Assembly (NCBI GenBank): GCA_035699745.1
Contig: DASSPH010000069.1
Coordinates: 124,001-188,000, forward strand
Direction: 5' to 3'
DNA: 64,000 nucleotides
DNA from: Vicinamibacterales bacterium
GTDB lineage: Bacteria; Acidobacteriota; Vicinamibacteria; Vicinamibacterales; 2-12-FULL-66-21
Below, piece after piece: positions 19,222 through 29,869 of the stretch. Under the pieces are notes generated by a model. That model saw nothing but the letters and a program-made list of their open reading frames with translations, searched no databases and had not been told where the DNA came from. Each line of letters starts with the position of its first letter. Position 1 is the first letter of the stretch. Position numbers and translations under genes: made by a program.

Positions 19222-20811
19222 ATGAAGCGTCACGCGGCTCGCGCCGTGCTCGTCGGACTCCTCGCCGCCCTCGCCCCGGCGGCCGCGGCGCAGGCGGCGA
19301 CCTTCGTCGTCAACGACGCCGGCAACGCATCCGACAGCAGTGCCGGCAACGGGGTGTGCCGGACGAGCGGCGGCGTCTGTACGTTGCGGGCCGCGATCCA
19401 GGAAGCCAACGCCAGTTCCTCGCTCGACACCATCACCTTTGCGATCGGGAGCGGCCCCAGGCGCATCAGCCTGTCGTCGAGCCTGCCGACCATCACCCAG
19501 CCGGTCGTCATCGACGGGACGACCCAGCCCGGGTTCGGCGGCACGCCGCTCATCGAGATCCGCGGCACGAGCAGCCTCGGCGACGGGATCAAGATCTCCG
19601 CCGGCGGCTGCACGCTGCGCGGCGTGATCGTGAACGGCTTCGGCGGCGACGGCGTGTTCGTGTCCGGCCCCGGCGGCAACGTCATCGAAGGCAACTACAT
19701 CGGCCTCAACGCCGCCGGCGACGCCGCGGTGCCGAACCAGCAGACCGGCATCCGGATCGAAGCGCCCAACAATCGGATCGGCGGGCGCCAGGTCTCTCAG
19801 CGGAACGTGATCTCCGGCAACACCGGCCGCGACATCATGGGCGGTCTGATGATTTACGGCGCGTCGGCGGCCAACAATGTCGTGCAGGGGAATTTCATCG
19901 GTCTCGACGCGACCGGGATGTTCCCGCTGGGCAACGAAGGGCGCGGGGTCGCCGTCCACGACGCGCCGGGGAACTTCATCGGCGGCCTCGAACCTGGCGC
20001 GGGCAACCTCATCGCCGGCAACCGGGCAACGGGCGTCAGGCTCTGGGGCAAGGCGGACGGCAACTACGTCCTCGGCAACTGGATCGGCACCAACAAACTC
20101 GGCGAGACGAGTATCGGCCTGTGGCCCGAGCCCGGCACGCTGAGCAACGCGCGCGGCGTCCAGATGCGCTCCGACAACAACATCGTCGCCTACAACTACA
20201 TCGCGGGGAACACCTACGAAGGAGTGCTCTTCTACGACGGCTTCATGAAGGACTTCAATACGGAGGCGACGGCGAGCAACAACCTGATCTACGCCAACAC
20301 GATCACCAATAACGGCATGTTCCCCTTCGGACCGGACGGCCCGGGCGGCGGCATCCTCGTTGGCTTCGGCACCGGCAACCGGTTCATCGCCAACTCCGTC
20401 TACGACAACCTCGCATTCGGCATCAACAATCAGTACCGCGAGTGGGACAACGTCGACGCAAACGATCATCTCGACGCGGACACCGGCGGCAACAACCGGC
20501 AGAACTTTCCCGCGGTGACGTGGTCGTCGAACGCCGGCGGCCGGACGACGGTGGCGGGCGGACTCCACTCCACGCCCAACTCGAACTTCCTGGTCCAGTT
20601 CTTCGCCAGTCCGGCGTGCGACCCGTCCGGATTCGGCGAGGGTCAGTATTACCTCGGGTCCACGACAGTGGCGACCGACGCCAGCGGCGACGGGACGTTC
20701 CTCAACGTCGCGCTCCCGTACCTCGTCCCGGCTGGATGGGTGCTGACGTCGACCGCGACGGCGGCCAACGGCGACACGTCGGAGTTTTCCGCCTGCTACG
20801 TCGTCAAATAG
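19222..20811 (+). CDS. Secreted CSLREA-type right-handed beta-helix protein
   Basis: 529 aa with a signal peptide (MKRHAARAVLVGLLAALAPA). Immediately after it comes the CSLREA-like N-terminal motif: TFVVNDAGNASD, then GVCTLRAAIQEANA. The body (about residues 95-420) consists of short repeats rich in GNxI and NxIxGN (NVIEGNYIGLNAAGD, NVISGNTGRD, NLIAGNRATG, NIVAYNYIAGN), the pattern of a right-handed parallel beta-helix as in polysaccharide-binding or lyase-like proteins. The last 90 residues form a separate beta-sandwich (TTVAGGLHSTPNSNFLVQFFAS). No catalytic residues identified; likely a cell-surface or secreted structural or glycan-binding protein. Its 3' end overlaps the convergent regulator gene by 8 bp. 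Confidence 0.85.
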   Translation: MKRHAARAVLVGLLAALAPAAAAQAATFVVNDAGNASDSSAGNGVCRTSGGVCTLRAAIQEANASSSLDTITFAIGSGPRRISLSSSLPTITQPVVIDGTTQPGFGGTPLIEIRGTSSLGDGIKISAGGCTLRGVIVNGFGGDGVFVSGPGGNVIEGNYIGLNAAGDAAVPNQQTGIRIEAPNNRIGGRQVSQRNVISGNTGRDIMGGLMIYGASAANNVVQGNFIGLDATGMFPLGNEGRGVAVHDAPGNFIGGLEPGAGNLIAGNRATGVRLWGKADGNYVLGNWIGTNKLGETSIGLWPEPGTLSNARGVQMRSDNNIVAYNYIAGNTYEGVLFYDGFMKDFNTEATASNNLIYANTITNNGMFPFGPDGPGGGILVGFGTGNRFIANSVYDNLAFGINNQYREWDNVDANDHLDADTGGNNRQNFPAVTWSSNAGGRTTVAGGLHSTPNSNFLVQFFASPACDPSGFGEGQYYLGSTTVATDASGDGTFLNVALPYLVPAGWVLTSTATAANGDTSEFSACYVVK

Positions 20812-22705
20812 CGGGCGGGGGTTTGTTCTCGAGGTCGCTCAGCATCCTCTTGAACGCCGGATCGCCTCTCAGCGGCTCCAGCAGCGGGTCGCGCGCAAGG
20901 CAGGGGCCGCACGGCAGCCCGCTGTCGACCGCGCGCTGCAGCCAGGTGAGCGCGTTCCGGCGATCGCCGAGCTGCGCGTACGCCGCGCCGAGACTGTAGG
21001 CGACGTGGTGATCCATGTACGCGCCGCGGACGATGGCGGCGATGCGCTCGCGCGCCGGCGCGGTGAGGCCGGCCGCCGCTTCGACGGAGGCGAGCGAGGC
21101 CTGCGCGCGGACGTCGGGCTTGCCGCCCCGCATCACTGACGCGAGCACGTCGCGCGCGCCTGCGGCGTCGCCAGAGTAGTAGCGCGCGAGGCCCAGGTAA
21201 TGCCGGGCCGCCGGCACGTCCGTTTCCCGCACCAGCCGGTTCGCGGCGGCGAGCGCCGCGGCGTAGTCGCCGCGGGCGATGAGAATCGCGGCCTCGATCC
21301 GCGCGATCTCGACGTTCGATCCGGGATTCAGCGTGCGCGCGAGGCGCGCCTCGTCGGCCGCGTCGTCGAAGCGGCCGAGATGATACAGCGCACGCATCCT
21401 GACGACGTGCGCGAGGTCGAGCGAGGGATCGAGCGCCAGCGCGGTGCGCGTGCCGTCGAGGACGGCCTTCCAGTTGAATCCGCCGTACAACGTGCCGGCG
21501 GCGCTCGCGATCGCGAGCTGCGCGTCCGCGAGCAGCGGATCCTGCGCCAGCGCCAGGTGTGCCTCGTCGTCCGCCCGCCTGCCCCACGCCAGCGCCTCGC
21601 TCTCGTAGGCATACCGCACGCTGAACCACGCCGCCGCGGTGGCCATTCCCGCGTGGGCCAGCGCATAGCGCTCGTCCAGCGCCACCGCCTGCTCGAAATA
21701 GCGGAGCGCCTCGCGCATCCGCGGATCCGTGTAGCTGACGAGCAGCGCCCGGCCGCGGAGATACAGATCGTAGGCCTCCGGGTTCTCGGTGTACCGGCGG
21801 TGGAGACGGGCGCGCTCGGGCGGCGACAGGTGCACGCCAAGGGCGGCGGCAATCTGCCCGGCGATGTGGTCCTCGATCACGAGCAGCGCGCCCCGAGGCT
21901 CGTCGTACGCGCGGCCCCACACGACGATCCCGTTCGCGTCGACGAGCTGCACCCGGAAGCGATACGAGCTGTCGCTGGGCTGAATCGTGCCGATCAGAAG
22001 GTATTGCACGCCCAGGGCGGATGCGATGCTCGCCGGAGCGATCTGGGCGTCGCGGTAGGGAAGCACGGCCGGCGTCGCGCGCAGGGCGAGCCGTCCGGTG
22101 CCGGCGAGCCGCGTGATGATCGCGTCAGCAATCGCCACGCCGACGTATGACATGTCGCCGGCCGCCGTGCCCGGGAGCACCCGGAACGGCAGGACGGCGA
22201 GCTGGGCTGGCCGTTGGCGTTCCTGCGCCGGAGCCGTCAGTCCCTGCCGGTACGCGAACCACACACCGGCGGCCGCCGAGAGGATCACCACCGTGGCAAG
22301 CAGCCGGCCGACCGCGCGGTTTGCCCGCGCGACCGGTGGTGGCGGCGCCGGCGGCGTTCTCACCAGCCCCGCCGCGTTCAGATCGGCGGTGACGACCGTC
22401 ACCGGCGCGATGAACCGATAACCGCGCCGGGCCAGGGTTTCGACGAAACGCGGTGCATCCGCCGAGTCGCCGAGCGCCTTCCGCACCTTCTTGATCGCGG
22501 TGTTCAGCCCGTGCTCGAAATCGACGAAGGTGTCGGTTCCCCACAGCCGCTCCCGAAGCTCGTCGCGGGTCGCGATCTGCCCGGGTCGCGCCAGCAGGGC
22601 GGCGAGCACCTGCCGCGGCTTTTCCTGCAGCGGGATGCGGACGCCGTCCAGGTACAGCTCGCCCTGATCCTGGTCGAACTCGAACCGCTCGAATCGAAGC
22701 CGCAT
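20804..22705 (-). CDS. Winged-helix (OmpR/CadC-type) transmembrane TPR regulator
   Basis: 633 aa. Residues 1-105 are an OmpR/PhoB-type winged helix without receiver domain (GVRIPLQEKPRQVLAALLAR, then FVDFEHGLNTAIKKVRKALG and RGYRFIAPV). A proline-rich linker and one transmembrane helix (about 133-153) follow, so the sensor part is extracytoplasmic, as in CadC/ToxR. Residues ~165-290 match the FlgO/adenylate-cyclase-associated periplasmic domain (AVLPFRVL, ADAIITRL, YLLIGTIQP). The rest is TPR-like helices, ending in a Cys pair (LPCGPC). This layout is very common in Acidobacteriota. Divergent from the beta-propeller gene, which it may control (inference). Confidence 0.88.
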   Translation of the reverse strand: MRLRFERFEFDQDQGELYLDGVRIPLQEKPRQVLAALLARPGQIATRDELRERLWGTDTFVDFEHGLNTAIKKVRKALGDSADAPRFVETLARRGYRFIAPVTVVTADLNAAGLVRTPPAPPPPVARANRAVGRLLATVVILSAAAGVWFAYRQGLTAPAQERQRPAQLAVLPFRVLPGTAAGDMSYVGVAIADAIITRLAGTGRLALRATPAVLPYRDAQIAPASIASALGVQYLLIGTIQPSDSSYRFRVQLVDANGIVVWGRAYDEPRGALLVIEDHIAGQIAAALGVHLSPPERARLHRRYTENPEAYDLYLRGRALLVSYTDPRMREALRYFEQAVALDERYALAHAGMATAAAWFSVRYAYESEALAWGRRADDEAHLALAQDPLLADAQLAIASAAGTLYGGFNWKAVLDGTRTALALDPSLDLAHVVRMRALYHLGRFDDAADEARLARTLNPGSNVEIARIEAAILIARGDYAAALAAANRLVRETDVPAARHYLGLARYYSGDAAGARDVLASVMRGGKPDVRAQASLASVEAAAGLTAPARERIAAIVRGAYMDHHVAYSLGAAYAQLGDRRNALTWLQRAVDSGLPCGPCLARDPLLEPLRGDPAFKRMLSDLENKPPPAI

Positions 22706-23831: not shown

Positions 23832-25100
23832 TTACGCGACGTTGCTGACGTCCAGCTTGCGGATGTCGTCGATGCCGTAGCGCAGCATGGCGAGGCGTTC
23901 GAGTCCGTAGCCGACGCCGACCGCGGTGTGCACAGCAGGATCGCCGCCGAGGTGCCCGACCACGCGATCGGTGAAGACGCCGAACGCAAGCACTTCCCAC
24001 CACCGGCCGTGCTGCTCGACGTCGATGTCGAACGCTTCGCTGCACATCGCGTACGACGTCGGCGCGATCCGCACGGGCAGCCCGGGCATCGTCGCGTCGA
24101 CGGACTGCAGGACGCGCGACATGATCTGCCACTTGTCGAGCCGATCGCGCCGATCGAGGCAGAACACTTCCGCCTGGTGGAACGCCTCGAGATGGGTCGA
24201 GTCCGGTTCGCAGACGCGGTAGGTCTTCCCGGTCGAGAAGATGCGGAGCGGCGTCCCTTCGAACCGGACGTTCATCAGGAGCGGCAGCGTCAGGTCATAA
24301 CGCAGGATCCGGCGGTCGTCGATGCGATGCAGCTCGCGGACGTCCACGTAGACCGCGTCGCGCGCGATCGTCCGCTCCGCCTCCGCCCAGTCCACGACCT
24401 CGGGCAGCTCGCGCGGCTCGAAGTCGGGGAACACCGCACGCACGGCCTCCAGCACGATGGCCACGGGGTTCTCCGGCAGCTCGGTGAGCTGCGGCCGCGC
24501 CAGCAGCTCCACGATTTTCGCCGGCATGTCCCCGGGCAGCCGATCGAGGTCGAGCACGCGCCGTTCGGTCATCTCCATCTCCTTCCGCAGCTTGTCGCGA
24601 ATGCGCTGCAGCCGCTTGCGCATGGCGGTCTCGTCGATGCCCGCATCCGCCGCCAGACGCGCCGTGTTCCAGTCGCCGTGGTAACGGCGATCGCACAGGC
24701 GGCGCTCTTCGCGCGTGAGTGTCAGCAGCGCCCGGGCGAGACGCAGACGCTTCGCCTCGGACCACCGTTCTTCCTGCTCGTCGAGGATGGGCACGTCCGG
24801 GGCGTCCTCCAGCTGGAGGAACGTATGGCGGCGCGCGCGCCGCGTGTTCAGGGCCGTCGTGATCACAACGCGCCGGAACCATCCGGGGAATGCGGCGGCG
24901 TCCTCGAGGTCCGAGAGCCGCCGGAACGCGACGAGGTAGGCTTCCTGGACCGCGTCCTGGGCCAGGCCGGCGTCACGCAGGACGTTGTACGCCAGCGCGA
25001 AGGCCATCCGCTGGGTCAGGCGGACGACGTCCCCGAAGGCGTCGACATCGCCCCTTCGGGCCCGTTGGACGAACTGGGTGAGCGGCTCCACGCGATCCAC
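23832..25100 (-). CDS. ECF sigma factor fused to a PheS-like aminoacyl-tRNA synthetase core
   Basis: 422 aa in one uninterrupted frame; GTG at 25100, with another GTG nine bases downstream as an alternative. Residues ~10-95 are ECF sigma region 2 (FGDVVRLTQRMAFALAYNVL, AQDAVQEAYLVAFRRL, FPGWFRRVVITTALN). Residues ~120-175 are region 4 (LTREERRLCDRRYHGDWNTA, then ETAMRKRLQRIRDKL). Residues ~195-422 align with the class II catalytic core of phenylalanyl-tRNA synthetase alpha. Motif 2 is RIFSTGKTYR followed by FHQAE at 307-311; then HGRWWEVLAFGVF; motif 3 is GYGLERLAMLRYGIDDIR with R402. The PheS coiled-coil N-terminus is absent, and no pheT lies nearby. The PheS specificity stretch FPFTEPS is replaced by AMCSEAF. 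It may be a ligand-sensing or amino-acid-activating module controlling the sigma half; function unproven. It follows the aminotransferase gene by 60 bp. Confidence 0.88.
   Translation of the reverse strand: MDRVEPLTQFVQRARRGDVDAFGDVVRLTQRMAFALAYNVLRDAGLAQDAVQEAYLVAFRRLSDLEDAAAFPGWFRRVVITTALNTRRARRHTFLQLEDAPDVPILDEQEERWSEAKRLRLARALLTLTREERRLCDRRYHGDWNTARLAADAGIDETAMRKRLQRIRDKLRKEMEMTERRVLDLDRLPGDMPAKIVELLARPQLTELPENPVAIVLEAVRAVFPDFEPRELPEVVDWAEAERTIARDAVYVDVRELHRIDDRRILRYDLTLPLLMNVRFEGTPLRIFSTGKTYRVCEPDSTHLEAFHQAEVFCLDRRDRLDKWQIMSRVLQSVDATMPGLPVRIAPTSYAMCSEAFDIDVEQHGRWWEVLAFGVFTDRVVGHLGGDPAVHTAVGVGYGLERLAMLRYGIDDIRKLDVSNVA
24572..24584 (-). promoter_or_regulatory. Internal Shine-Dalgarno and start codon in the sigma-PheS gene
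   Basis: On the minus strand AAGGAG (24584-24579) stands six bases before an in-frame ATG (24572, residue 177), exactly at the boundary between sigma region 4 and the PheS-like half. Initiation here would produce a free 246-aa PheS-like protein in addition to the fusion. The sequence also encodes KEM within the linker, so chance cannot be excluded. Confidence 0.45.
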
Positions 25101-25160
25101 GCTACTGACGAGAAGACACCAGTGGCGGCCGAACGTGACGGACTCCCCCCGAGCCGCCGG

Positions 25161-26486
25161 CTAGCCTATCTGCGCCAGGGCGCGGTCGACGATATCGAAG
25201 CCGTGGCGCAGCTCTTCCTCCGTGATGGTCAGCGGCGGGTTGGCGAAAAAGTAGTTGAAGCGGACGAAGGTGTAGAGCCCCTCTTCGCGGAAGATGCGGC
25301 GCAGGTGATTCATCGGCTCTGACGTGCCGTTGAACGGCGCGAGCGGCTCCATCGACTCGCGATCCTTCACCAGCTCGACGATGCCGAAGAGGCCGATCGA
25401 GCGGACGGCGCCGACGATCGCGTGCCGCGACTGGAGCTGCGCCAGAAGGTCCTTCATCACGCCGCCCATCTTCCGCGCGGCTTCGATCAGGTTGTCGTCT
25501 TCGTACACCTTCAACGTCGCGAGCGCGGTGGCGCAGCCGAGCGGGTGGCTGTTGTAGGTGAGGCCGCCGAAGAACACCCGGTCCTTGAAGTGATCGGCGA
25601 TGACGCGCCGCATGCCGACGGCGCCGAGCGGAACGTAGGCGCTCGTCAGCCCTTTGGCCATCGTGATCAGATCGGGCACGACCCGCCAGTGATCGACCGC
25701 GAACCATTCCCCGGTACGGCCGAAGCCGGACATCACTTCGTCGGCGATCATCAGGATGCCGTACCTGGTGCACAGCTCCCGGATTCCCTGGATGAAGCCG
25801 TCCGGCGGGACGAGCACGCCGTTGGTCCCGGTCACCGGCTCGAGGATGAAGCCGGCGATCGTGTGCGCCCCTTCGAGCTGAATCGTCTCCTCGATCCGCG
25901 CCAGCGCCGCCGCGGCGCTCTCCCAGCCCTGCTGCACGCCGTGGTACGGGTTCAGCACGTGGACGACCCCCGGCATGCCGGGCTCGGAGGACCATCGCCG
26001 CGGATCGCCGGTCAGCATCATCGCCCCCGCCGTGCCGCCGTGGTACGACCGGTAGAACGACAGGATCTTGTGCCGTCCGGTGTAGAAGCGCGCCAGCTTG
26101 ATGGCGTTCTCGTTGGCTTCGGCGCCGCCGTTGGTGAAGAAGAACACCTCGATGTCGCCCGGGCAGATCTGCGCCAGCTTGCGACCCAGACGGGCCCGCG
26201 CTTCCGTCGCCATGAACGGATTCGCGTAGGCGAGCGTCTCGGCCTGCTGCTGGATCGCGCGGATCACCCGCTCGTCGCCATGGCCGATGTTGACGCACAT
26301 CAACTGGCTGTTGAAGTCGAGATACCGCTTTCCCTCCGGCGTCCAGAACCAGCAGCCCTTCGCGCCGGCGACCGGAATCGGATCGATCGCCCCCTGCGCC
26401 GACCACTCGAACAACGTGTGCTTCTTCGTGAGATCGACGATGGTCTGGCCGCTGAGGCCCGCAACCGCAGTGTCCACGGTGTTCAT
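25161..26486 (-). CDS. Class III (omega) PLP-dependent aminotransferase
   Basis: 441 aa. Fold-type I class III enzyme: GCWFWTPEGKRYLDFNSQLM at the N-terminus, FFFTNGGAEANENAIKLAR for cofactor-phosphate binding, DEVMSGFGRTGEWFA with the pyridine-nitrogen Asp, and the Schiff-base lysine K278 in MAKGLTSAYVPLG. Related to omega-amino acid:pyruvate, taurine:pyruvate and beta-alanine transaminases. It would transfer an amino group from a non-alpha amine to a keto acid. It lies 21 bp downstream of the dehydrogenase gene in a five-gene minus-strand set, so it likely acts in the same catabolic route. Substrate unknown. Confidence 0.9.
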   Translation of the reverse strand: MNTVDTAVAGLSGQTIVDLTKKHTLFEWSAQGAIDPIPVAGAKGCWFWTPEGKRYLDFNSQLMCVNIGHGDERVIRAIQQQAETLAYANPFMATEARARLGRKLAQICPGDIEVFFFTNGGAEANENAIKLARFYTGRHKILSFYRSYHGGTAGAMMLTGDPRRWSSEPGMPGVVHVLNPYHGVQQGWESAAAALARIEETIQLEGAHTIAGFILEPVTGTNGVLVPPDGFIQGIRELCTRYGILMIADEVMSGFGRTGEWFAVDHWRVVPDLITMAKGLTSAYVPLGAVGMRRVIADHFKDRVFFGGLTYNSHPLGCATALATLKVYEDDNLIEAARKMGGVMKDLLAQLQSRHAIVGAVRSIGLFGIVELVKDRESMEPLAPFNGTSEPMNHLRRIFREEGLYTFVRFNYFFANPPLTITEEELRHGFDIVDRALAQIG

Positions 26487-26507
26487 CCCTTCTCCTCCCG
26501 AGGGCGA

Positions 26508-27572
26508 CTACGTCCTGACTTCCGCGAGAATCGCGTTCGCGACGTCCTTCGTGCCGGCCCGGCCGCCGAGGTCCGGCGTGCGCGGACCGCTGCCGCCCAT
26601 CACGCGCTCGATCGCGGCGACGATGGCGTCGTGCCCTTCCCGTGCGCCGAGATGATCGAGCATCAGGGCCCCGGCCCAGATGGCGCCGATCGGGTTGGCC
26701 ACTCCCTTCCCCGCGATGTCCGGCGCCGATCCATGTATCGGCTCGAACATCGACGGGTACCGCCGTTCCGGGTTGATGTTGCCGCTCGGGGCGATGCCGA
26801 GGCTGCCCGATACGGCGGCGCCGAGATCGGTGAGGATATCGCCGAACAGGTTCGACGCGACGATCACGTCGAGGCTGCCGGGATCGGTGACCATCCGGGC
26901 CACCAGGGCGTCGACGTGGTACTTGCGCCACGAGACCCCCGGGTAGTCCGCGGCGACGCGGTCGACCACCTCGTCCCACAGGACCATCGTGTACTGCAGG
27001 GCGTTGGACTTGGTGGCGCTCGCCAGCAGCTTGCGCGGCCGCTTCGACGCGGTCTCGAACGCGTACCGGGCGATCCGCTCGATGCCGCGCCGCGTCATCA
27101 CGCTCACCTGCTGCGCGACGTCCTCGGGGGTGCCCGGATGCAGGCGTCCGCCGATGCCGGCATATTCCCCTTCCGAGTTCTCCCGCACGCAGATCATGTC
27201 GATGTCGGGCGCGCCGCGGCCGGCGAGCGGCGTCTTCGCGCCGGCGACGAGCCGCATCGGGCGGAGGTTGACGTACTGATCGAATCGCTGACGGATCGGC
27301 AGGATCAGCTGCCACACCGAGACGTGATCGGGCACGGACGGATCGCCGATCGCGCCGAGATAGATCGCGTCGAACTCGCGCAGGCGCTCGAACCCGTCCG
27401 GGTCCATCATCCTGCCGTGGCGATGATAGAAATCGCATCCCCACGGGAACTCCGTGAACTCGATCCCGGCGCCGCAGAGCGCCGCCGCTTTCTTGACCAC
27501 TTCGATCCCGGCGGGGATCACTTCCTTGCCGATTCCGTCTCCGGCAATCACTGCTACACGCGACTTGGCCAA
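26508..27572 (-). CDS. Tartrate/D-malate-type beta-decarboxylating dehydrogenase
   Basis: 354 aa, of the isocitrate/isopropylmalate dehydrogenase family. Conserved pieces: AGDGIGKEVIPAG at the N-terminus, PIRQRFDQYVNLRP, VRENSEGEYAGIGGR (substrate loop), SNLFGDILTDLGAAVSGSLG with metal-binding Asps, and FEPIHGSAPDIAGKG. The substrate loop and length are closest to tartrate/D-malate dehydrogenase rather than LeuB. Oxidises and decarboxylates a 2-hydroxy-dicarboxylate with NAD+ and a divalent metal. Sits between the aminotransferase and SDR genes with gaps of about 20 bp, so it is probably part of a catabolic operon and not leucine synthesis. Confidence 0.88.
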   Translation of the reverse strand: MAKSRVAVIAGDGIGKEVIPAGIEVVKKAAALCGAGIEFTEFPWGCDFYHRHGRMMDPDGFERLREFDAIYLGAIGDPSVPDHVSVWQLILPIRQRFDQYVNLRPMRLVAGAKTPLAGRGAPDIDMICVRENSEGEYAGIGGRLHPGTPEDVAQQVSVMTRRGIERIARYAFETASKRPRKLLASATKSNALQYTMVLWDEVVDRVAADYPGVSWRKYHVDALVARMVTDPGSLDVIVASNLFGDILTDLGAAVSGSLGIAPSGNINPERRYPSMFEPIHGSAPDIAGKGVANPIGAIWAGALMLDHLGAREGHDAIVAAIERVMGGSGPRTPDLGGRAGTKDVANAILAEVRT

Positions 27573-27595
27573 CGTCTCACCCTTTCACTGTCACA

Positions 27596-28378
27596 CTACA
27601 TACCCGGCGGCGAGAAGCGGCCGTCGGCCGCGAGCCAGCCGCCATCGACGAAAATGATCGATCCCGTAACGTAGCTCGCGGCATCCGAGGCGAGGAACAC
27701 CGTCGCGCCGACCAGCTCCTCCGGCTTGCCCCAGCGCTTGAACACGCTCTTGGCCGCGTACGCGTTGTACCAGTCCGCGTTGGCCTTGATCGGGGCGGTC
27801 AGCGGCGTCTCGATCACGCCCGGGCCGATGGCGTTGACCCGGACGCCGTGCGGGCCGAACTCGGCCGCGGCGGTACGGGCGAGCTGGACGATGCCCGCTT
27901 TGGTGGCGGCGTAGGCGGCCTGCCCCGGCTCGACGACCTGCGATCGGATCGACGAGAAGAGAATGATGCTGCCCTTCTTTCGCGGCGTCATCACCCGCCC
28001 GGCCGCGCGCAGCACGTGGAAGTTCCCCTTGATGTTGACGTCGAGCACCCGCGACAGCTCCTCGTCCGTGTACTGCAGGATCGGCTTGCGGACGTTGATG
28101 CTGGGCGTGCAGATCGCGACGTCGACGCCGTACCTGGCGTCGAGATCGGCGAAGGCCCGATCGACGGCGCCGGCGTCGCGGATGTCGAGCGCCGCGCTCT
28201 CCGCCTGGCCGCCGTCGCGGCGCGCCCGCTCGGCGACGCCGCGCGCCGCCGTGTCGTTGACGTCGAGGCACACGACCCGCGCCCCCTGGCGCGCGCAGCC
28301 GAGCGCCACCGCTTCCCCGATGCCCGAGCCGGCGCCGATCACCGCCGCGGTCTTGCCCGTCAGACTGAACAGATCCAT
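27596..28378 (-). CDS. SDR family oxidoreductase
   Basis: 260 aa classical short-chain dehydrogenase. The Rossmann motif is GAGSGIGEAVALG near residue 16; the Asp in VVCLDVND favours NAD+. The catalytic Ser lies in ILFSSIRSQ and the Tyr/Lys pair in YAATKAG. The usual NNAG motif is replaced by CTPSINV, as in a subset of SDRs. The C-terminal FVDGGW is typical. Directly abuts the symporter gene (no gap) and is followed by the dehydrogenase gene, so it likely oxidises an intermediate of the imported compound. Confidence 0.9.
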   Translation of the reverse strand: MDLFSLTGKTAAVIGAGSGIGEAVALGCARQGARVVCLDVNDTAARGVAERARRDGGQAESAALDIRDAGAVDRAFADLDARYGVDVAICTPSINVRKPILQYTDEELSRVLDVNIKGNFHVLRAAGRVMTPRKKGSIILFSSIRSQVVEPGQAAYAATKAGIVQLARTAAAEFGPHGVRVNAIGPGVIETPLTAPIKANADWYNAYAAKSVFKRWGKPEELVGATVFLASDAASYVTGSIIFVDGGWLAADGRFSPPGM

Positions 28379-29809
28379 CTACACCGCCTCCACGCCGGCC
28401 CCGCGCCCGCGCGCGACATACACGATCGCATAGGCGATCGCCGACGCGATCAGGCCGAGCAGGTTGGGATTGAAGATGCCGTACCCGATCCCCCCCGTCG
28501 CCACCTGTACGGCGAGCAGTGTCGCGATCCCTGCGGCGATCGCGGCGAGCGCCTCCGGCGCCCCGCCGCGCTTCCCGGCCAGGCCGGCGATGACCGGCAC
28601 GAAGAGACTCACCCCCGCCAGCGAGTAGAAGATCGCCAGCGCCGAGACGATGGTCGAGAGCTGCACCGCCAGCACGGTGCCGATCGCGCCGCCGGCGACG
28701 GCGGCGATTCGCGCCACGCGGAGCATCTGGGCGTCGCTCGCCGCAGGATTGATGATCCGCTTGTACAGGTCCTTCGAGAGCGACGTCGACAGCATGAACA
28801 GAATCGCGTCGCACGTGCTCACCTCGGCGGAAAACACCGCCGCCAGGCCCAGCGCCCCGAGCCACGGCGCCATGTCCTCGGCGAACACGGTCGGCAACAC
28901 CAGGTTGATGCTCGCGACCGACGGATGCAGCACGCGTGCGGCCATGCCGAAGAACACGGGGATGAACGAGAAGACCAGCAGGCAGGCGCCTTGCGCGGCG
29001 ATGCCGATCTTCACCGCAGCTTCGTCGCGCGCGCCGTACGCTTTCTGCAGCAGCCCCGGAGACAGCATGAACGCCGGACCGTAGATCGCGAGCAGCTTCC
29101 AGCCCGACACGGACGTCGCCGGCGAGGTGTAGAACGGATCGAGAAACCCCGGGGGCAGCGCGGCGCTGGATGCCAGGCCCGACAGGCCGCCGACGGCCGA
29201 GAGCACCGGCGGAACCGCCAGCGCGAACCCGATCATGAGGACGACGAGCTGCAGCAGGTTCACCCATGCCGAGCTGAGCAGGCCGCCGGCGACGAAATAG
29301 ATCGTCATCACCACCGCGCCGATCGCCGCGCCGGCGCCGCGCGGAATGCCCGCCACCACTTCGAGCACGGCCGCCCCGGCGATCAACTGCCCGGCGAGGA
29401 TGAACAGCGTTCCGATCCACACCAGCGCGGCGATGACGACGCGGACCTGCTGGCCGTAGCGATGCTCGAGAAAATCCCCCGCGGTGTAGAAGCCGTGCGC
29501 GCTCGCCAGCCGCCAGATCCGCGGGCCGACCCAGAAGGCGAGCACGAACGACGCGAGCCCGGCGGTGCCGTTCCACCACCACGCGCTGAGGCCGTCCCGG
29601 TACGCCATCCCCGCGGCGCCCACCGTGGTGCCGGCGCCGATGTTGGCCGCCAGCACGGTCGAGAAGAGCAGCGGCGCCCCCAGCGTCCGGCCGGCGACGA
29701 AGAAATCGCCCGAGCCGCGCACGAACCGCCCGATCCACAGGCCGACCGCGGTCAACAGGATCGAGTAGCCGATGAGCAGGCCGAGATGAATGCTCACGAA
29801 ACCGGGCAT
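28379..29809 (-). CDS. Sodium:solute symporter (SSS family)
   Basis: 476 aa. I use ATG 29809 (MPGFVSIHLG); an upstream start would add 15 polar residues before helix 1. About 13 transmembrane segments with SSS landmarks: FFVAGRTLGAPLLFSTVLAA in helices 1-2 with NIGAGTTVG, GFYTAGDFLEHRYG, and the sodium-site region FSAEVSTCDAILFMLSTSL. The family imports sugars, amino acids, carboxylates or vitamins with Na+. First gene of the minus-strand catabolic set, so its substrate is likely what the SDR, dehydrogenase and aminotransferase degrade. Divergent from the M20 hydrolase gene with only 60 bp between. Confidence 0.9.
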   Translation of the reverse strand: MPGFVSIHLGLLIGYSILLTAVGLWIGRFVRGSGDFFVAGRTLGAPLLFSTVLAANIGAGTTVGAAGMAYRDGLSAWWWNGTAGLASFVLAFWVGPRIWRLASAHGFYTAGDFLEHRYGQQVRVVIAALVWIGTLFILAGQLIAGAAVLEVVAGIPRGAGAAIGAVVMTIYFVAGGLLSSAWVNLLQLVVLMIGFALAVPPVLSAVGGLSGLASSAALPPGFLDPFYTSPATSVSGWKLLAIYGPAFMLSPGLLQKAYGARDEAAVKIGIAAQGACLLVFSFIPVFFGMAARVLHPSVASINLVLPTVFAEDMAPWLGALGLAAVFSAEVSTCDAILFMLSTSLSKDLYKRIINPAASDAQMLRVARIAAVAGGAIGTVLAVQLSTIVSALAIFYSLAGVSLFVPVIAGLAGKRGGAPEALAAIAAGIATLLAVQVATGGIGYGIFNPNLLGLIASAIAYAIVYVARGRGAGVEAV

Positions 29810-29869
29810 CGTAGCATGGCGGCGCGTTTGACAATCTTCCGCCGCTTGGAACAAGTTGCCACAGGATCA

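Follow-up and report, generated by a model that had tools for sequence, protein, structure and literature searches.

A sigma factor and an aminoacyl-tRNA synthetase core are joined in one protein, and this join is real, old and conserved in some Acidobacteriota. It unites an ECF sigma factor with a catalytic core of the PheS type, and expression of the fusion gene itself is probably controlled by an amino acid, as such or in activated form. Fused sensory domains are already known in ECF sigma factors; a synthetase core as the extension appears to be new, in that we found no description of one. In the open-access literature covered we met no account of a synthetase extension on an ECF sigma factor (the main ECF reclassification paper lies outside that scope), and a review that counts at least 26 ECF groups with extensions does not mention one (PMC8999054).

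A sigma factor and a synthetase core in one gene

The fusion gene lies in a 64-kb stretch of DNA, called the window below, at 23832–25100. It is a single frame of 422 codons without a stop, exactly where the initial annotation had placed it, and is read on the minus strand from a GTG start at 25100 to a stop codon that ends at 23832; an overlapping shadow frame occupies the plus strand. Comparison with homologues suggests that codon 4, also GTG (25091), is the likelier start. No stop or frameshift separates the two halves in the window, which would have spoken against a fusion, and the same single frame recurs in independent genomes.

Region 2 of the sigma factor occupies residues 26–91 of the window protein (24828–25025, minus strand; Sigma70_r2, PF04542, E 1.9e-7), and region 4, the -35 binding domain, residues 119–171 (24588–24746, minus strand). 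The Pfam match to region 4 (PF08281) has an E of 0.019 in the window protein, which is below the cut-off, and of 7.8e-5 in the best other member, and the NCBIfam model sigma70-ECF (TIGR02937) matches above its cut-off over residues 21–175. Regions 2 and 4, which the initial annotation had also recognised, stand at ECF spacing with no region 3 between them, and both match sigma structures. Residues 185–255 (24336–24548, minus strand) form the joint and the motif-1 region of the class II core, with the conserved signature LLARP-LT-LPENPV, and are followed by the catalytic core proper at residues 256–417 (23850–24335, minus strand; tRNA-synt_2d, PF01409, E 1.3e-24). Within the core, motif 2 extends from R295 to FHQAE at 307–311 (24168–24218, minus strand) and motif 3 reads G397-x-G-L-E-R402 (23895–23912, minus strand); both are invariant in all full-length members, and FHQAE and R402 are at the residues given in the initial annotation.

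Structure prediction agrees with these assignments. AlphaFold2, run on the core alone with PheS relatives in the alignment, gave a model with a pLDDT of 91.2 and a pTM of 0.88, in which the joint and motif-1 region folds within the core (pLDDT about 90). The best structural match of this model is PheRS alpha (2rhs; Z 23.8, 1.9 Å over 205 residues), and SepRS and PylRS rank next with Z of 20–21.5. In the full-length model, ECF sigma folds are recognisable as well as PheRS (region 2 matches sigmaE/SigW with Z 14, and region 4 matches that of SigL with Z 10.1), although its pLDDT of 62 is too weak for the arrangement of the domains to be read from it. The genome that contains the window encodes separate PheS and PheT proteins on contig C15, so the fusion is not its housekeeping PheRS.

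How widespread is this architecture? A pattern scan that covered one genome per species (84,980 species) found a single full-length relative (L041, 61% identical); its genome and G183 are apparently one and the same, since contig and coordinates are identical. Among 193 genomes of the window's own class the fusion is present in eight, the window included, which belong to four families, and a sample of the phylum (n=396) added one full-length fusion from another class at 38% identity (L129/L151), where it occurs in only 1 of 38 genomes. The total is nine genomes in six genera and five families, a count that supports the earlier suggestion that such a fusion is highly unusual. Seven of the nine genes are intact, with identities of 60–64% within the one class and 38% in the other. 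Of the remaining two, that of G029 runs off the end of its contig, and the other, in a metagenome-assembled genome that is 77% complete (G188; L127/L150, contig C104), carries two shifts, near residues 187 and 245, which cancel out and restore the frame; these may be an assembly error or genuine. The two halves were never separate genes in the relatives seen. A profile of the core, applied to 349 Pseudomonadota and 296 Actinomycetota genomes, gave no match above 89 bits, a score that ordinary PheS also reaches, as compared to about 446 bits for the fusion, and matches in a plasmid collection were likewise at the ordinary PheS level only. Within our sample the family therefore looks restricted to Acidobacteriota, other phyla having been covered by the pattern scan only.

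The two halves diverge in step, as sigma and core identities between members correlate with r = 0.996. Values of dN/dS were 0 to 0.31 over sigma part, linker and core (mostly 0.1–0.3) in the pairs compared, both close and distant. By these measures the fusion behaves as a single gene that evolves under purifying selection.

Active site and missing parts of the core

Alignment of the fusion members with E. coli PheS, from which the E. coli numbering used here is taken, indicates that the residues that handle ATP and the carboxylate and amino groups of the amino acid are retained. R195, Q208, E210, E300, R301, G296 and G298 of the E. coli protein correspond to R295, Q309, E311, E401, R402, G397 and G399 of the fusion, all invariant, and equivalents of most of them line the phenylalanine site of M. 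tuberculosis PheRS (PMC12447630). The pocket for the phenylalanine ring, on the other hand, is altered in every member: A294 is replaced by G, F250 by M and T251 by C or A, and F248 is mostly Y. In E. coli PheRS, A294G and T251G widen the pocket (PMC3275996). The changes at positions 294, 250 and 251 thus make it likely that the ligand is an amino acid other than phenylalanine, perhaps a larger one. In L151, the most distant member, P stands at the position of E. coli E268 and S at that of H202; because of these two replacements catalysis may have been lost there and may not be universal among the members.

Several parts of PheS are absent from the fusion, namely the coiled coil, the HPAR loop, the TEPS segment, FPF, and the C-terminal tail including the FYENDLRFLEQF segment; nor does the protein contain an FDX-ACB domain, an anticodon-binding domain or a fusion to PheT. 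Judged from its sequence, the PheS-derived core is one that has lost its tRNA-handling parts.

Predicted promoter and genomic surroundings

A scan for shared gapped words found GTCAC-N16-TGTC upstream of the fusion gene in 7/7 loci compared, with identical spacing and 39–74 nt before the assumed start; in shuffled upstream sets the best gapped word reached 3/7. In the window this predicted ECF promoter lies on the minus strand at 25115–25139 (GTCAC at 25139–25135, TGTC at 25118–25115), within the 60 nt between an aminotransferase gene and the fusion gene, and is the only copy in the whole window. When the longer form GTCACRNT-N12-GTGTCYTT was sought in the nine genomes, all mismatch-free copies preceded the fusion gene, whose own site has one mismatch in three of the genomes; copies with one mismatch elsewhere were few and mostly inside long open frames. 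Since the conserved motif directly precedes the fusion gene and its longer form is free of mismatches only there, the natural reading is that the gene is autoregulated through this predicted promoter, and the strict motif identified no target beyond it in the nine genomes. A relaxed scan with a 17-nt spacer served as background control only. It shows that a reversed-pattern control underestimates the background about three- to fourfold, and we therefore do not claim other matches to looser motifs as targets. One such copy lies about 90–110 nt upstream of a homoserine dehydrogenase-like gene in two genomes of one genus (L186/L187; G181 and G183) and is probably due to chance.

None of the other fusion loci shares neighbours homologous with those of the window locus, and with neighbouring genes that differ in this way the fusion is not in a conserved operon. 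In the window it lies downstream of a tight array on the minus strand (25161–29854) of genes for a sodium:solute symporter, a short-chain dehydrogenase (SDR), an isocitrate/isopropylmalate-type dehydrogenase (Iso_dh) and a class III aminotransferase, which looks like a catabolic operon; this array is not kept beside the fusion in other genomes and was rejected as a clue to its function. Elsewhere in the window a 633-aa frame (20804–22705, minus strand) resembles, by eye, a winged-helix regulator with TPR-type repeats, and no Rfam families were found in the window. In one genus, as seen in L041 (4846–5856, minus strand), a gene of the ornithine cyclodeaminase/mu-crystallin family and the fusion gene are oriented divergently. 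No anti-sigma factor was evident among the neighbours examined, and ECFs with regulatory extensions likewise have none in their neighbourhood (PMC8999054).

Proposed mode of action and comparison with known systems

We propose that the fusion is a one-component ECF sigma switch, in which the PheS-derived core senses an amino acid (probably not phenylalanine) together with ATP, or the adenylate, and which drives its own promoter; we regard this proposal as about evenly poised between right and wrong. The synthetase core would bind a small amino acid and ATP, or make and hold an aminoacyl-adenylate, and whether it is occupied or empty would alter the engagement of sigma regions 2 and 4 with core RNA polymerase. 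The active sigma factor would then start transcription of its own gene at GTCAC-N16-TGTC, and possibly of further targets, so that the switch would reinforce itself by positive feedback. A more specific form of the idea, held with less assurance, is that the synthetase-derived domain of the sigma factor forms or binds the aminoacyl-adenylate and that the sigma factor thereby switches its own promoter, the amino acid possibly being a non-standard aromatic or modified one.

In the chief rival reading the output is the core itself, as an active ligase: the sigma part would do no more than induce its own gene and so yield more ligase, which would attach an amino acid to a protein, a carrier or a small molecule. 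A fusion gene that is its own sole detectable target is what such a ligase would lead one to expect, and ECF41 factors, too, apparently have just one target each, the gene of a neighbouring enzyme (PMC3426412). The retained binding residues for ATP and amino acid are in keeping with it too, as is the fact that NCBI labels another PheS relative, SrmL, a mystery ligase. No acceptor gene is conserved near the fusion, however, and the E268 position is not kept in L151, and we consider a ligase output unlikely. Loss of the PheS signature pieces HPAR and TEPS, and of two active-site residues in L151, might instead point to a degenerate fold that serves only in dimerisation or in masking of the sigma factor and has no ligand. 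Such a fold is hard to reconcile with adenylate-site residues that are invariant at 38–64% identity and with a pocket that is changed alike in all members, and we think it improbable.

Regulatory domains derived from synthetases are known from other systems, and the initial annotation had suggested a sensor of this kind for an amino acid, an adenylate or an uncharged tRNA. Its first two ligands remain our leading idea; the third is less likely because the coiled coil, the FDX-ACB domain and the PheT partner are absent from the fusion. A core that senses uncharged tRNA or translation stress in the manner of GCN2 or HisZ would further have to do so with no anticodon-binding domain and no C-terminal PheS segment, and the loci contain no tRNA gene apart from one prediction in a truncated contig; taken together these make it quite improbable. 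Finally, the two compensating shifts near the joint in G188, and a gene in G029 that ends with its contig, could suggest an artefact of assembly, two genes read through by chance or a pseudogene. This is already contradicted by an identical frame in seven intact genomes, one of them from another class, and by purifying selection, and we give it hardly any credence.

If the synthetase core is the sensor, as our proposed switch has it, transcription initiation would be coupled to the activation of an amino acid directly, without RNA, ribosome or ppGpp as an intermediary. The fusion also provides a system in which orphan PheS-like proteins can be put to the test: its promoter is known as well as its protein, and transcription from that promoter is a simple readout.

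Among known proteins, bacterial PheS (PheRS alpha) shares with the fusion the class II core fold, the motif 2 arginine, FHQxE and the motif 3 GxGxER, and the invariance of R295 and R402 together with the structural match to PheRS alpha places the fusion core among class II cores of the PheS type, as first claimed. It is not a PheS equivalog, as it scores 50–86 bits against a cut-off of 237 and lacks PheS signature pieces. Unlike PheS, the fusion carries a sigma factor, has no coiled coil, HPAR, FPF or PheT partner, and has the A294G and F250M pocket. SrmL (NF051887) is likewise a PheS-like core whose function is not assigned. The C-terminal part of the fusion scores equally on the PheS and SrmL profiles and far under both cut-offs (54–85 bits against the curated 300 for SrmL), so it is not a member of that family either, and the SrmL profile differs in that its end matches the C-terminus of PheT, a part that the fusion lacks. 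In most relatives positions 246–348 of that profile match a second site beside PheS, apparently this same C-terminus, and SrmL itself may resemble mitochondrial PheRS in combining a PheS core with an FDX-ACB-like domain. Pyrrolysyl- and O-phosphoseryl-tRNA synthetases share the PheRS-like fold; they match less well than PheRS in sequence and structure, and the fusion has no tRNA-binding domains.

In working mode only, the fusion can be compared to the BirA-type (class II) biotin protein ligase, which makes an acyl-adenylate, carries an N-terminal DNA-binding domain on the same chain and doubles as a regulator (PMC5039522). Biotin is the ligand of BirA, which works as a repressor, whereas the fusion is a sigma factor with a PheS-like core; its ligase-like domain is tRNA-synt_2d, which rules out a biotin protein ligase domain. 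ECF41 factors resemble the fusion in having a regulatory C-terminal extension, no anti-sigma factor, GTCAC in the -35 element (TGTCACA in ECF41) and very few targets (PMC3426412). They differ in their -10 element, which is CGTC as compared to TGTC in the fusion, and in the WLPEP motif of their linker, which is absent between regions 2 and 4 in all fusion members. The extension of the fusion is a synthetase core (tRNA-synt_2d) instead of a SnoaL-like domain, and the fusion is thus not an ECF41 member. What the proposed switch would have in common with ECF41 and ECF238 is a sensory C-terminal extension that takes the place of an anti-sigma factor.
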